From NCBI GenBank assembly GCA_021794095.1, contig JAJYRN010000011.1, positions 1 to 64,000 on the forward strand: DNA of 64,000 bases, written 5' to 3'. How positions within the stretch are numbered: position 1 is the stretch's first letter; every line of letters starts with the position of its first letter. Below are positions 3,033 through 9,667 of this stretch, one piece after another. The DNA is from Acidobacteriota bacterium (GTDB taxonomy: Bacteria > Acidobacteriota > Holophagae > Holophagales > Holophagaceae). A program made the position numbers and the translations under genes. A model generated the notes under the pieces. It was given only the letters and a program-made list of their open reading frames with translations, did not search any database and had not been told where the DNA came from.

Positions 3033-3431
3033 CTACTCGGAAAAGGCTTGGGCGCAGAGCGGGGTCCGCTCCTGGGTCCGGGCTTCGGTGATGCGGTTGC
3101 GCCCGTCCACGAAGACCACCCGGGGTGCGTGAACCTCCTGCTCCTCGGGGGACATCCAGCCGTAGGCGGCGATGATGACCAGATCCCCCTTCTGGACCAG
3201 ATGGGCGGCGGCGCCATTGATGCCGACTTCGCCGGAACCCGGCGTTCCCGGGATGACGTAGGTCGAGAGGCGCGAGCCATTGGTGACATCGTAGATGTCC
3301 ACCTTCTCGTTCTCCAGGAACCCAGCGGCTTCGATCAGCAGCGGATCCAGCGTGATGGAGCCGACATAATCCACATCGGCCCGGGTGACCGTGGCGCGAT
3401 GGATCTTTCCGAGCAGGAAGTGGCGCAGCAT
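3033..3431 (-). CDS. panD: Aspartate 1-decarboxylase proenzyme
   Basis: A 132-residue pyruvoyl enzyme that decarboxylates L-aspartate to beta-alanine for pantothenate synthesis. Self-processing occurs between Gly24 and Ser25, seen here in DYVGSITLD. Lys9 (GKIHRATVT) and the C-terminal YGWMS segment are also conserved. It lies on the same strand as panC and panB but is separated from them by the gene for a secreted protein at 3520-4026. The start at 3431 gives the normal [14 protein letters not shown]-terminus. The longer open frame upstream is spurious. Confidence 0.95.
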
Positions 3432-3519
3432 GCTCCCTCCGGTCCAGGCTCTCGACAGAGTCCCGGCCAACGGACAAGCATGGCGCCAGGTGAACCCTGG
3501 GTCCAGCCTCGATTTTGTG

Positions 3520-4026
3520 CTAATTGAACAGCACCACGTGGAGGTTGATGCCCAGTCCCACATGGGGCGGGGGCACGGGCGGGGGCGCCATGGGCAGGCT
3601 GAAGGCGCCTTCGATGTCCAGCCGGGCCGAGGGATCCGTGATCCGCCGCAGCAGCCAGCGGCCATCCATGAAGACATAGCAGCGGGAAGGATCGCCGGGG
3701 ATCAGGGCTACGTAGTGCCGTTCGCGGGGGCGCCAGTAGCCGGCCATCCAGGGGGGCGCCAGGTAGCGCCCGGGATGCTGCCGGTCCTCGTAGCGGTAGG
3801 GCCGGCCACGCCAGGCGCCCCGGTCGTCGCGGCCCCGGCCCCGACCGGGCCGCTCGCGGTCATCCCGGCGTTCTTCCCCGCGGCCCCGCCCGCGATGTTC
3901 GTCCCGGTCCCGGCGGTCCTCCTGATCCCCGTGGCGGCCACGGTCATGATCCGGCTGGGCCTGGGCAGGGGCGCCCTGGAAGGCCAGGGCGAGCAGAAGG
4001 GCGGGAGCGAGCATGGGTCTGAACAT
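3520..4026 (-). CDS. Secreted Arg/Asp/Gly-rich protein of unknown function
   Basis: 168 residues from the ATG at 4026, which has an ideal GGAGG 5 nt upstream. A signal peptide is visible ([18 protein letters not shown], with likely cleavage after APAQAQ). It is followed by about 65 residues almost entirely of Arg, Asp, Gly, His and Glu, then a tyrosine/tryptophan-rich part ([19 protein letters not shown]) and a proline-rich tail. Such low-complexity charged regions are usually disordered. I do not recognise a family. Its place between panC and panD looks incidental rather than functional. Confidence 0.7.
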
Positions 4027-4151
4027 GGAACCTCCGGAGGTGTCCGTTGTTTCCAGACTAGGCGCTTTTCCGCCCCCCGCCATGCATCGAAAGGACTAGG
4101 AGCCCATGCACGTTTTCGCGTGCGGGGCGTTCCAGGGAGGTGGGCAGATCT

Positions 4152-5042
4152 CTAGCTCGCCTGCGGGCTCAGGCTCACGTTCAGGCCAGCGCCTTCGGGC
4201 GAGGGGGACAGCACCACATTGTCAATGAGGCGGGTGGAGCCGACATGGGCGGCCACACAGAGGGCCACGGTGCGGTCCACGGTGCCATCGTGGGATTCAA
4301 GGGTCTGGGCATCCACCAGTTCGACGTACTGGACGTCATCCACCTCCGGCAGGGGCGCCTGGGCCAGTTCCAGCAGGCGGGCGGTGCTGCGCTCCCCGGC
4401 ATCGAAGGCGGCCTTGGCGGCCAGCAGACCCCGGCTGAGGGCCAGGGCGCGGGTGCGGTCCTCGGGCTTGAGATAGGCGTTCCGGCTGCTCAGGGCCAGG
4501 CCGTCGGCTTCCCGGATGGTGGGTACCACCACCACATCCACGGGCATGTTGAGATCCCGCACCATGCGGCGGATGACCACGGCCTGCTGGTAGTCCTTCT
4601 GGCCGAAGAATGCCAGGTCAGGCTGGACGATGTGGAAGAGCTTGGCGACCACCGTGGCCACGCCCCGGAAGTGGCCGGGACGGAAGCGCCCGCAGAGGGG
4701 CTCGGCCAGGCGGCCGGGCTCCACATGGGTCTGGAACCCCGTGGGATAGATCTCCGACACCTCGGGGATGAACAGCACGTTGGCGCCGGTTTCGAGGCAG
4801 AGGCCCTGGTCCCGTTCCAGATCCCGGGGATAGTTCGCGAGATCCTCGCCCGGTCCGAACTGGGCCGGATTCACAAAGATGGACACGACGGTGGCGTCGC
4901 AGCGGGCGGCGCTCTGGCGGATCAGGGCCCCATGGCCCTCGTGCAGGAACCCCATGGTGGGCACGAAGCCGATCCGCTGACCCTGCTCGCGGTGGGTCCG
5001 CAGGAGAGCCCTCAAATCTGCAATGGTACGCACAACACGCAT
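4152..5042 (-). CDS. panC: Pantothenate synthetase
   Basis: 296 residues. It condenses pantoate and beta-alanine with ATP to give pantothenate. The nucleotidyltransferase HIGH-like motif is GFLHEGH (His34, His37), and the KMSKS-like region is ALSSRNAYL. FGQKDYQQ and VVVVPTIREADGLALSSRN are diagnostic. The start at 5042 (ATG CGT GTT GTG) is the first consistent with the family. The upstream extension in the same frame is unrelated sequence. panB ends 52 nt upstream on the same strand, so panBC probably form one transcript. Confidence 0.96.
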   Translation of the reverse strand: MRVVRTIADLRALLRTHREQGQRIGFVPTMGFLHEGHGALIRQSAARCDATVVSIFVNPAQFGPGEDLANYPRDLERDQGLCLETGANVLFIPEVSEIYPTGFQTHVEPGRLAEPLCGRFRPGHFRGVATVVAKLFHIVQPDLAFFGQKDYQQAVVIRRMVRDLNMPVDVVVVPTIREADGLALSSRNAYLKPEDRTRALALSRGLLAAKAAFDAGERSTARLLELAQAPLPEVDDVQYVELVDAQTLESHDGTVDRTVALCVAAHVGSTRLIDNVVLSPSPEGAGLNVSLSPQAS

Positions 5043-5094
5043 GGCCAAAAACGACTCCCTTTCGGTAGTGCCGCTCAGAATACCCGGCTTCGGG

Positions 5095-5958
5095 TCAGGG
5101 TTTCCACTGGACCACGGCCGGACGGACGGCTTCTGGAAGGGTATAGGATTCCCGGGCATCCGGGAAGCCTCCGCTCCGCACATCCTCGGCCCAGGCGGCC
5201 AGGGCGGCCCGCAGATCCTGGAATCCCTGGGCATAGCGCCGCACGAATTTCGGGCCGGGTTCGGGGATCAGGCCCAGGACATCGTGGAACACCAGCACCT
5301 GGCCGGAGCAGGCGGGACCGGCCCCGATGCCGATGGTGGGGATGGACAGGGTCTCCGTCACCCGGGCGGCGAGATCCGCGGGGATGCCCTCCAGCACCAG
5401 GGCGAAGCAGCCCGCCTCCTGCAGGCGATGGGCATCCTCCAGGAGGGCGATGGCGTCGCCCTTGCCCCGGCCCTGCACCTTGTAGCCCCCCATGGGGTTG
5501 AGGCTCTGGGGCGTGAGGCCCAGGTGCCCCATGACCGGAATCTCGGCATCCAGGAGGGCGTGGATCATGGGCAGCCGCTTGGCGCCGCCTTCCAGCTTGA
5601 CGCCGGCCGCGCCTCGCTGGAGGAAGCCCCCGGCGTTCCGCAGGGTGTCCTCCACGCTCAGGTGGAAGCTCAGGTAGGGCATATCGGCCAGGAGCAGGGC
5701 CCGGGGGTGGGTGCGGGCCACCGCCTCCAGGTGGTGGTTCATCATGGCCATGCTGACCGGCAGCGTGTTCTCGAAGCCCAGGCAGACATTCCCCACGCTG
5801 TCCCCCACCAGGATCATGTCCACCCCGGCGGCATCGGCGATGCGGGCGGTGGGGGCATCGTAGGCGGTGGTCATCACCAGCCGCCGTCCTTCGCGGGCCC
5901 AGGTGTGGATCTGGGGCAGGGTGACGCGGGCGTGGGATTCAGGGGCCTGGTGGCTCAT
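5095..5958 (-). CDS. panB: 3-methyl-2-oxobutanoate hydroxymethyltransferase (ketopantoate)
   Basis: 287 residues. It transfers a hydroxymethyl group from methylenetetrahydrofolate to alpha-ketoisovalerate, the first committed step to pantothenate. The Mg-binding segments are visible: MILVGDSVGNV with the metal Asp, MPYLSFH, and VKLEGG. The catalytic Glu lies in the MGHLGLTPQS region and onward. The C-terminal PKFVRRYAQ is typical. It is the first gene of the panBC unit. No clear promoter was found in the repeat-bearing gap upstream. Confidence 0.96.
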   Translation of the reverse strand: MSHQAPESHARVTLPQIHTWAREGRRLVMTTAYDAPTARIADAAGVDMILVGDSVGNVCLGFENTLPVSMAMMNHHLEAVARTHPRALLLADMPYLSFHLSVEDTLRNAGGFLQRGAAGVKLEGGAKRLPMIHALLDAEIPVMGHLGLTPQSLNPMGGYKVQGRGKGDAIALLEDAHRLQEAGCFALVLEGIPADLAARVTETLSIPTIGIGAGPACSGQVLVFHDVLGLIPEPGPKFVRRYAQGFQDLRAALAAWAEDVRSGGFPDARESYTLPEAVRPAVVQWKP

Positions 5959-6235: not shown

Positions 6236-9200
6236 TCAAACCTCCGGCAGCGCGGGCAGGTTCATCTGGGTGGGGGTCCAGTCCTCCAGGGAATCGGTGC
6301 GGTCGGGCAGCACGAAACGCAGGCCCACCGCCTCCACGGTTTCCTTGAACCGGTGGAGGTCCTCCCGGCCGAGGAAGGCGATTTCCTGGCCCTCGGGCAG
6401 CCGGGCCCAGAGCTGCTGGAAGCTGGGGAAGGCTTCCTGCATGCGGGCGCGGGCGCCCAGCTTCTCCCCCCGATGCAGCAGAAGGGCGGCCCCTTCGGCG
6501 CTGGCCTCCAGGACCTCCGCCGGGTGCTGAAGGCTCCGGGCGGCGGCCAGCACCTCGCTCCAGGCCTGGAGGGTTTCCTGGGCCACGGTTTCCGAGGGCG
6601 GCACCGTGGAGAGCAGCAGGGCGTGGGCCCGGTGCCACTCCTGTTCCAGCAGGCGGGAATCGCTGCCCTCCACGGGCCCCTTCAGGTTCTCCAGGATGGT
6701 CCAGCCCTGTTCCGGGGCCTCCTGGTGGCGGCGCTGGGCCTCGCGGGCCTCGGCCTGGGCGAACCGGAGCAGGGCCAGGCGCTGACGCCAGAGGAAGCCG
6801 GTGGTCTCGTACTGGGTGGCGGCGGCCTGGTAGAGGCGGGCGGCATCGCGCCAGGCGCTGCGGAAGTGGGCCACCTCGGCCTGGAGGAGCATCTGGTCGC
6901 CCAGTTCCTCCGGGGCGAGCACGGCGGGCCGGGTGGCCAGGGCGGCGAGCTGGGCGTGGTCAGCGGCCACCAGGTCGCCCAGGGCCGCCAGGGTCCGGGC
7001 CTTCCAGGCGTGGGCCATGGAGACCGCCGCCGCATCGCCCAGGCCCTCCGCATGCTGGAGGGCGCGCTCCAGGTGGGACAGCGCCGCCCCCAGGCTCTGC
7101 TGGAGGCTCCGGGCGGAGCCCAGGGCCAGGTGGGCCTGGAGCTGGAGCGCCGCATCGGACTGCAAACGGGCGGTCTGGAGGGCCGCCTGGAGCAGGTTGA
7201 GGCCGCCCTCGGTCTGCCCCTGGGCCAGCCGCACCCGGCCCAGGGCGATCTGGACGGGCACGAGGCCCCGGAAATCCTGAAGGGGCTCCAGGAGGCGCAA
7301 GCTGGATTGGAGCAGGGTGGCCGCCCGGTGGAACTGGGCCTGGCCGGTCAGCGCCCGGCCCAGGGCCAGCAGCAGCGCGGCCTGATCCTGCGGCCGCGGC
7401 TTGCCGCCGCTGCCGTTCAGGAGCTGGAGGCCCTCCTCCAGGGCCCGGATGCCCTTGGTCATGAAGCCCTGGAGCAGGTGCCATTCCCCGAGGACCAGGC
7501 GCAGGCGGGGCTGTTCGGGATGAAGGGGGTGGTCGCTCAGGCGCTCGGCAGCACCGTGGATGGCCTCCTGGGCCTCGGCGGGATGCCGGAGCAGCAGCTC
7601 CAGGTGCGCCCATTTGCGGAGCAGACGGGCTTCCGTCAGCTCCAGATCCCGCTGTTCGGCGGGCGGAATCCGGGCCATGGCCTCCTGGGCCTTGCGCAGG
7701 GCGGCCAGGGCGAGGGTCGCGGCGGGCCAGGGGGCCTGTCCACTCTGGGGCGGCAGAGCACCCTGGGAGCCGGTGGCCCAGGCATCCGCCAGGTACTCAT
7801 GAAGCTGGGCTTCCTGGGCGGGGCCCGGCCGGAGGGCGAGGGCCTGCTCGACCACGCGCTGGGCCTCCTGGGGCGCGGCGGGGGGCTGACGGTGGATGGC
7901 CGACAGCACGACGTTCAGGGCGGTGGTCTGATCGGAGGCCAGGGCCTGGAGGGTGACCGAGAAGGCCAGATCGCCGCCCTGTTCCTGGACGTGTGCCAGG
8001 AGGGCGCGGGCCAGGCGCTTCAGTTCGGGCTGGGGGGTGTGGGCCAGCACGAGCTGGCGCCAGCGGGGATCCGGGATGGCGGCATCGTTCCGGCGCAGCT
8101 GCACCAGGCGGGAGCCCACGGCGCCCTGCAGGGCATCGTCCAGAGAATCGCCCGCCAGGCCGAGCAGGCGGCCCAGGGCGCCGGTCGGCAGGGGGCGGTC
8201 CGCCAGGGCCAGCAGGCGGACGAGGGTGGCCGAGGCGGGCTGCAGCCGCTGGAGGCGGCCCAGGAAGATCTGCCGCATCAGGTCTTCCTCTGCCCGGGGC
8301 ACGGCCGGGTGGTGGGCCGCGAGGGCCCAGCCGCCTGGTTCCCAGAGCAGGGAGCCATCCTGCTGTGCCAGTTCGAGCAGGTTGCGGAGCAGGCCGGGAT
8401 TCCCGAGGCTCTGTTCCAGGAGGTCGGCGAGGTAGGCCGCCGGCAGTGCGTGGCGGCCAAGGAGATCCTCCAGCACCATCCGCAGATCCTCATCCTCCAG
8501 GCGGTTCAGCCCCACCAGGGCGGCGGTGGGCTCGGCACGGAGCTGGGCGATCAGGGGTTTGAGGCCGGCCCCGTGGGCGCCCGTGGACAGGGAAAGCAGC
8601 CAGGGGATCCGGGAGGCATGCACCAGTTCCCGCACCAGGGCGAGCACCTCGGGAGTGCCTCGGTCCAGATCGGACAGGTGGAGGAAGCGGCCGTGGAGGT
8701 CGGCGGCGAAGGCCAGGGCCTCCAGCACCGCCCGCACCTCCTCCGCATCCGGCGCGGCCTCCTGGTGGTTGAAGGCCCGTCCCCCGGTCAAAAAGGCGAA
8801 GGCCTGGATCCGCAGGGCCAGGATCTTCGCAGCGCCGGGATTCTGGGCGTAGAAGTCCGCCTCGCTGCCCTGGAGCAGGCTCTCCAGGAGGCGGCCCAGG
8901 AAGCGCCCGGCGGATTCCTCCGGGGCCGGCGCCAGGCGGTGCACCCAGATGCCTTCGCTTTCGGCCACGGCGCAGGCCCAGGCGGCCAGGTGGGCCTTGC
9001 CGACACCCTCCTCCCCCTGGAGCAGGACGATCCGCTCCATGGAGATCGGCGCGCCAAGTCCGAGGACCAGGGACTTGAGGTAGGTGAGCTCCTGGCTCCG
9101 CCCCCGGATCGGGCGGGACAGCGGCTCCGAAAGGTCCGGCGGCAGGGCCCAGGGCCGCTCCTCGGACCCGGAGGGCTCCGGCGCCGTCTCCGGCAGGAAC

Positions 9201-9667
9201 GCGCTGAGGTGGTCGAGGCCCCAGGGGGCGTGACCGAGCACCCGCGGACAGAGCAGGTGGCCCGGCCGGAAGGTCAGCGCCTCTGGATGCAGGAACCGGG
9301 GATGGGGCGTGGCGGCCAGGACCGTGGCCAGGTGGTGCGTGGCCGCCTCCCGGGAGGCCGCGCCCCACTCGGGCCAGAGGCGCGACAGCGGCGTGCCCTG
9401 GAGTACCTGGAGGAACCAGGCCTGGCCATCGTCGAAGCCGAAATGGCAGTGGATGGGATCGAGGGGCGTGGCATCCAGGAAGCGGCTCAGGAAAGCTTCC
9501 CGGAGGTGGTCCAGATCGCGGTCGGAGGGCCGGGGCTGCCAGAGCTGGAGGAGGAAGCGGGCGCCATCGCCCTCCCGCCGCACCAGCTGCCAGGTGCAGG
9601 GCCCATCCTGGCCCAGGTCGCCCAGGGTGGTGAAGCGGTGCGCGCCCAGGAAGCGGGTCAGGTCCAT
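6236..9667 (-). CDS. Pseudokinase-like / P-loop ATPase / TPR-like signalling protein
   Basis: 1143 residues from the ATG at 9667 (MDLTRFLGAH). Residues 1-150 read like a decayed Ser/Thr kinase. A FLLQLW strand has Gln where the ATP-anchoring Lys would be. HPRFLHPEAL (122-131) sits where HRDLKPENIL is expected, without the catalytic Asp, and there is no DFG. A linker RPIRGRSQEL leads to a P-loop GEEGVGKA (218-225) and a Walker-B-like FLHLSDLD, as in STAND/AAA ATPases. The last 550 or so residues are Ala/Leu-rich helical pairs resembling TPRs. This layout recalls PknK/MalT-like regulators, but no DNA-binding domain is evident. The kinase assignment is my inference. Confidence 0.75.
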   Translation of the reverse strand: MDLTRFLGAHRFTTLGDLGQDGPCTWQLVRREGDGARFLLQLWQPRPSDRDLDHLREAFLSRFLDATPLDPIHCHFGFDDGQAWFLQVLQGTPLSRLWPEWGAASREAATHHLATVLAATPHPRFLHPEALTFRPGHLLCPRVLGHAPWGLDHLSAFLPETAPEPSGSEERPWALPPDLSEPLSRPIRGRSQELTYLKSLVLGLGAPISMERIVLLQGEEGVGKAHLAAWACAVAESEGIWVHRLAPAPEESAGRFLGRLLESLLQGSEADFYAQNPGAAKILALRIQAFAFLTGGRAFNHQEAAPDAEEVRAVLEALAFAADLHGRFLHLSDLDRGTPEVLALVRELVHASRIPWLLSLSTGAHGAGLKPLIAQLRAEPTAALVGLNRLEDEDLRMVLEDLLGRHALPAAYLADLLEQSLGNPGLLRNLLELAQQDGSLLWEPGGWALAAHHPAVPRAEEDLMRQIFLGRLQRLQPASATLVRLLALADRPLPTGALGRLLGLAGDSLDDALQGAVGSRLVQLRRNDAAIPDPRWRQLVLAHTPQPELKRLARALLAHVQEQGGDLAFSVTLQALASDQTTALNVVLSAIHRQPPAAPQEAQRVVEQALALRPGPAQEAQLHEYLADAWATGSQGALPPQSGQAPWPAATLALAALRKAQEAMARIPPAEQRDLELTEARLLRKWAHLELLLRHPAEAQEAIHGAAERLSDHPLHPEQPRLRLVLGEWHLLQGFMTKGIRALEEGLQLLNGSGGKPRPQDQAALLLALGRALTGQAQFHRAATLLQSSLRLLEPLQDFRGLVPVQIALGRVRLAQGQTEGGLNLLQAALQTARLQSDAALQLQAHLALGSARSLQQSLGAALSHLERALQHAEGLGDAAAVSMAHAWKARTLAALGDLVAADHAQLAALATRPAVLAPEELGDQMLLQAEVAHFRSAWRDAARLYQAAATQYETTGFLWRQRLALLRFAQAEAREAQRRHQEAPEQGWTILENLKGPVEGSDSRLLEQEWHRAHALLLSTVPPSETVAQETLQAWSEVLAAARSLQHPAEVLEASAEGAALLLHRGEKLGARARMQEAFPSFQQLWARLPEGQEIAFLGREDLHRFKETVEAVGLRFVLPDRTDSLEDWTPTQMNLPALPEV

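Follow-up and report, generated by a model that had tools for sequence, protein, structure and literature searches.

Analysis of a 64,000-nucleotide stretch of Holophagaceae DNA (the whole stretch analysed, hereafter the window) revealed a gene whose product descends from a PknK-type STAND kinase. The protein is family-specific and doubly degenerate, catalytic residues having been lost from two nucleotide modules and adenine-side motifs kept, and the gene is under selection family-wide. Our favoured, still tentative, interpretation is that this product of PknK-type descent, both of its nucleotide modules decayed, acts as a non-enzymatic scaffold or sensor, possibly partnering a kinase or a pantothenate enzyme. 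The gene and its main parts are as follows:

6236 to 9667, minus strand: whole gene, 1143 aa, comprising a pseudokinase, a degenerate STAND NOD, a TPR superhelix and a conserved tail peptide
9158 to 9667, minus strand: truncated pseudokinase, residues 1-170, with N-lobe, helices C, D and E and strands 7-8 (from AlphaFold2, Foldseek, VIA and hhalign)
7988 to 9112, minus strand: NOD (NBD-HD-WHD), a degenerate AAA_16, residues 186-560 (from the AAA_16 match and secondary-structure order)
6329 to 7957, minus strand: TPR-like superhelix resembling MalT domain III, residues 571-1113 (from Pfam, the model and a structural match)
6254 to 6286, minus strand: DW[T/S]PTQxNLP-type peptide, residues 1128-1138 (from comparison of ortholog tails)

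The open reading frame runs on the minus strand from an ATG at 9667 to a stop at 6236 (1143 codons). A GTG 27 bases upstream of the ATG is a possible alternative start, and relatives begin near the ATG. A plus-strand ORF of 1514 aa lying over the gene was attributed to high G+C and set aside as an antisense artefact. No RNA family and no promoter-like site were found at the gene, and the single terminator-like site within it corresponds to the number expected from shuffles. Searched alone against Pfam and NCBIfam, the window protein gave no kinase match and only weak matches to TPR and NACHT; a PDB sequence search yielded nothing significant, and no PADLOC model of anti-phage defence matched the protein.

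The gene is single-copy (one match in its own genome) and is present in 55 of 77 Holophagaceae genomes, representing 9 of 11 genera, with orthologs sharing 42-95% identity across almost their whole length. Among the order and phylum genomes sampled outside Holophagaceae, none showed the full architecture, the order-level sample being no larger than the family sample, and a search with a profile of the N-terminal half recovered, elsewhere in the phylum, domain-level relatives only. Eleven outside matches were examined: nine are Pkinase-AAA_16 proteins, a tenth is a fragmentary sequence and the last is without a Pfam match. Most of the nine carry TPRs, and some have GAF, sigma-54 activator and HTH domains or a GGDEF domain. 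The nearest outside relatives are colinear Pkinase-AAA_16-TPR proteins with intact kinase and Walker motifs. In the acidobacterial proteins L110-L114, L116, L117, L119 and L120, NOD and TPR homology is colinear with the Holophagaceae protein, whereas the kinase/Walker motifs are kept and several have an output domain.

The order of kinase, NOD and repeat sensor is shared with PknK of Mycobacterium tuberculosis, a protein of about 1100 aa which, like the Holophagaceae protein, has no C-terminal HTH. In contrast to PknK, the Holophagaceae protein has a dead kinase from which the catalytic residues and most of the C-lobe are gone, and a NOD without Walker residues. MalT and 6mfv also have a NOD followed by a TPR superhelix, but neither has a kinase-fold N-terminus. 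MalT has functional Walker motifs and a DNA-binding C-terminus. PknK and MalT have been named as a STAND subfamily (PMC4381067).

A dead kinase at the N-terminus had been proposed in an earlier note made from the sequence, and structure prediction bore this out. The AlphaFold2 model of residues 1-195, built on an alignment of 45 orthologs (pLDDT 89.7, pTM 0.87), has a protein-kinase fold with N-lobe strands, helix C, helices D and E and strands 7 and 8; a non-kinase fold was not seen. When this model was compared with the PDB by Foldseek, all 50 of the 50 matches listed were protein kinases (best E 4.6e-6), and VIA-align against TTK/MPS1 gave Z 9.6 over 158 residues (rmsd 5.1). The predicted fold ends after the catalytic hairpin and most of the C-lobe is absent; because the STAND module begins at about residue 186, there is neither an activation segment nor helices F-I. 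The kinase start and the NOD start are separated by about 180 residues in the Holophagaceae family versus about 285 in the relative L116. An hhalign comparison with 16 kinases was colinear from the Gly-rich loop to HRD and weak (E 0.003, probability 10%). The relation to kinases thus rests on the fold, this match and the domain order. Two positions illustrate the loss of catalytic residues:

9545 to 9547, minus strand: Q41, occupying the site of the ATP-anchoring Lys of strand beta-3 (44 of 45 orthologs have Q)
9281 to 9289, minus strand: H127-P128-E129, where HPE replaces HRD

At the position of the HRD Asp the window protein has E129, and six of the 45 orthologs have D. One ortholog (L041) has HRD present, yet is without the beta-3 Lys and without DFG. 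In the 45-ortholog alignment, no DFG motif follows the catalytic hairpin. Of the features of an active Hanks-type kinase, the fold is therefore retained and the VAIK Lys, HRD Asp and DFG Asp are missing. Similarly, catalytic motifs are lost within a Hanks-type fold in the bacterial Ser/Thr pseudokinase families ActPs1-3, GLW, CP1, DYD and DLHK (PMC12599244), described in a review whose text does not mention AAA, TPR, NACHT or Acidobacteria. Our literature search found no paper on a bacterial pseudokinase fused to a STAND module.

The second module was identified as a STAND NOD. The full-length model (pLDDT 87.7, pTM 0.57) shows NBD, HD, WHD, arm and TPR in this order, so that the NBD-HD-WHD order and the repeat sensor of STAND proteins are both present, and in the PDB it is matched best by the STAND-TPR protein 6mfv (E 4.1e-12). 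AAA_16 (PF13191) matched this gene with E 2.9e-6 over positions 3-159 of 167, at a score of 24.2-28.6 bits, below the curated cut-off of 32.6. Profile searches against kinase and STAND families, which the earlier note had advised, gave a divided answer: among 25 orthologs, Pkinase was matched in none of the N-terminal halves and AAA_16 in 19 members (E up to 0.01). The motifs of the NOD are located as follows:

8993 to 9016, minus strand: degenerate Walker A GEEGVGKA, residues 218-225 (from the 45-ortholog alignment)
8669 to 8674, minus strand: Walker B position S332-D333, with the first acid lost in 45 of 45
9089 to 9106, minus strand: N-terminal GRxxE motif of the NOD, on the adenine side, R188-G-R-x-x-E193, with R188, G189, R190 and E193 in 45 of 45
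8393 to 8407, minus strand: L421-G-N-P-G425, a sensor-2/adenine-side motif conserved in orthologs

GEEGVGKA had been read as an intact P-loop, which the alignment contradicts. Position 225, where Walker A has Ser or Thr, is Ala in the window protein and E, A, D, G or N in orthologs, with Ser in one of 45; Lys224 is kept in 34 of 45, the window protein included, and is Q, H or L in the other 11, which belong to five genera. Neither the Walker A pattern GxxxxGK[S/T] nor the Walker B acid pair is thus found; at the corresponding alignment positions the intact outside relatives have GxxGxGK[S/T] and a [D/E]D pair. The winged-helix His occurs in some outside relatives and is replaced by other residues in the Holophagaceae sequences aligned. 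The GxP motif of STAND proteins is present (N and P each in 44 of 45, the flanking G in 45 of 45). From the known roles of these motifs, the phosphate/Mg2+ side of the NOD appears to be lost and the adenine side kept.

Degeneration of Walker A, Walker B and the winged-helix His throughout the family leaves the idea of a functioning STAND switch unsupported. What stands of the STAND-type sensor suggested earlier is the architecture of a dead kinase joined to STAND and TPR modules, which is well supported by the kinase fold, the matches to 6mfv and MalT domain III and the Pkinase-AAA_16-TPR relatives. Motif loss does not prove that nucleotide binding is lost; the window protein retains the Walker A Lys and D333. 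The protein might still be a nucleotide-gated STAND protein that binds ADP/ATP without Mg2+-dependent hydrolysis, in which a TPR ligand would open the molecule, oligomerisation would follow and the clustered pseudokinases would recruit an active kinase. The frequent retention of Lys224, the near-invariant adenine-side motifs and the intact NBD-HD-WHD-arm-TPR order in the model agree with this proposal, but the Lys has been lost in five genera that still keep the gene, the first Walker B acid is lost in all and the winged-helix His is absent from the aligned sequences, and we regard such gating as rather unlikely. ADP/ATP exchange is the generally assumed mechanism of STAND proteins, and the present family allows one to test whether a STAND scaffold signals without a nucleotide switch.

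The earlier count of more than 500 residues of TPR-like helices was confirmed, the repeats extending from about 570 to 1113 according to Pfam, the model and the structural comparison. Residues 571-1113 form helical pairs that match MalT domain III with Z 24.7 over 350 residues (rmsd 3.8), values which show the arrangement of the predicted repeats, not a ligand. As also noted before, no DNA-binding domain ends the chain: a C-terminal HTH (LuxR-type, as in MalT/LAL) was found neither by Pfam nor in the model, whose last elements are two short helices followed by a disordered tail (pLDDT under 50 for residues 1125-1143). Within this tail, D-W-[T/S]-P-T-Q persists in almost every ortholog; L032, L050 and L053 are exceptions, Y replaces W in L001-L003 and E replaces D in L043. 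Conservation of the peptide although the tail is disordered suggests a docking or phosphorylation site.

Downstream of the gene, the window contains three genes of pantothenate synthesis:

5095 to 5958, minus strand: panB (ketopantoate hydroxymethyltransferase), 277 bp downstream of the gene and its ancestral operon partner
4152 to 5234, minus strand: panC (pantoate-beta-alanine ligase), downstream
3033 to 3677, minus strand: panD (aspartate 1-decarboxylase), matching ORF residues 83-200

In six non-Geothrix genera, the TGA of the gene overlaps the ATG of panB as ATGA (4 nt), ahead of panC and panD; the overlap was seen directly in nine loci. The upstream neighbour varies, being cox/ctaB in Geothrix and L053 and other genes elsewhere. 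The gap between gene and panB in Geothrix is about 60-560 bp or holds inserts, namely a gene in two loci and about 4 kb in two; in three Geothrix loci, panB was missing from the stretch of roughly 10 kb that was examined downstream of the gene. In L053, panC directly follows the gene with no panB between, and several Geothrix genomes, two of them with ctaB beside panB, have intact panBC and lack the gene. The link to pantothenate synthesis is ancestral and, given these gaps and inserts, the L053 locus and the Geothrix panBC without the gene, not obligatory. The protein could instead be a scaffold or sensor for another pathway, the pan link being incidental and reflecting shared transcription only. 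The open and interrupted Geothrix junction and the independent persistence of panBC speak for this, but six genera have preserved the 4-nt overlap despite a changing upstream neighbour; we consider this reading unlikely. The pan operon link gives a concrete route to assay function.

The coexistence of a decayed kinase and switch domain with strong selection points to a scaffold or sensor rather than an enzyme. The ancestor would have been a PknK-type signalling ATPase with a Ser/Thr kinase, a STAND NOD and a TPR sensor, in which the kinase was stripped of its catalytic residues and of most of the C-lobe, and the NOD of its Mg2+ and hydrolysis residues. In the resulting protein, the TPR arm may bind a partner or ligand, and the NOD may be a hinge that is structural or holds an adenine ligand. 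The pseudokinase and the conserved tail peptide may jointly form an output surface that engages a partner, which could be an active Ser/Thr kinase or a pantothenate-pathway enzyme. The anatomy, the motif losses, the purifying selection and the ancestral coupling to panB are observed, and the lack of catalysis, the scaffold role and the tie to pantothenate or CoA are inferred from them. The proposal of the earlier note that the dead kinase is a ligand or partner module of a STAND protein is plausible. We consider it improbable that the protein is a repurposed STAND receptor that keeps only its adenine pocket and senses with it a metabolite containing adenine, for example CoA, in which the panBCD-fed pathway ends, with pool size relayed via the dead kinase docking on one of the Pan enzymes or on an active Ser/Thr kinase. 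Still less probable is a catalytically active kinase-fold enzyme of different chemistry, comparable with SelO and SidJ, which were at first called pseudokinases: the kinase fold is conserved and Q41 and W43 are nearly invariant among orthologs, but there is no Mg2+-binding Asp/Asn, and the predicted fold stops before any activation segment.

Selection on the gene was assessed by a simple Nei-Gojobori estimate over ten ortholog pairs, which gave dN/dS of 0.055-0.264 in the pseudokinase; the ranges were 0.034-0.252 in the NOD and 0.037-0.259 in the TPR arm. These ratios indicate strong purifying selection, and the profile does not look like that of a decaying gene. That the gene is a decaying, functionless relic, a view for which the lost motifs and its absence from some Geothrix genomes could be cited, is highly improbable, as values of 0.03-0.26 disfavour decay, nearly all copies are free of stops, invariant residues are spread through the protein and the tail peptide is conserved. 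One copy (L048, genome G050) contains one in-frame TGA and the copies of G016 and G061 were each matched as two separate segments of a single contig; a small number of copies may therefore be broken or wrongly assembled.

Several further observations concern the pan neighbourhood. A GDP-fucose synthase-like gene, recognised by eye, lies between gene and panB at L022:4906-6103, and the gap before panB in L018 is similar in size to this insert. In the Geothrix loci L127 and L128, ctaB and panB are about 1.4 kb apart and no copy of the gene was detected between them. In Geothrix genome G046, which lacks the gene, a 1032-aa kinase directly upstream of panB (L122:4728-7826, plus strand) was tested as a divergent ortholog and rejected; this Ser/Thr kinase is intact and unrelated, and it has a transmembrane-like stretch. 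Between panC and panD in the window, an ORF at 3523-4083 (minus strand) has no Pfam or NCBIfam match and is similar to ORFs in many Geothrix loci; because it overlaps the panD ORF, the start of one of the two may be misread. Additionally, a SAH riboswitch (Rfam RF01057, 57.5 bits) was found at 1219-1303 of the window (minus strand), at the start of a PfkB-family kinase gene that perhaps encodes adenosine kinase.
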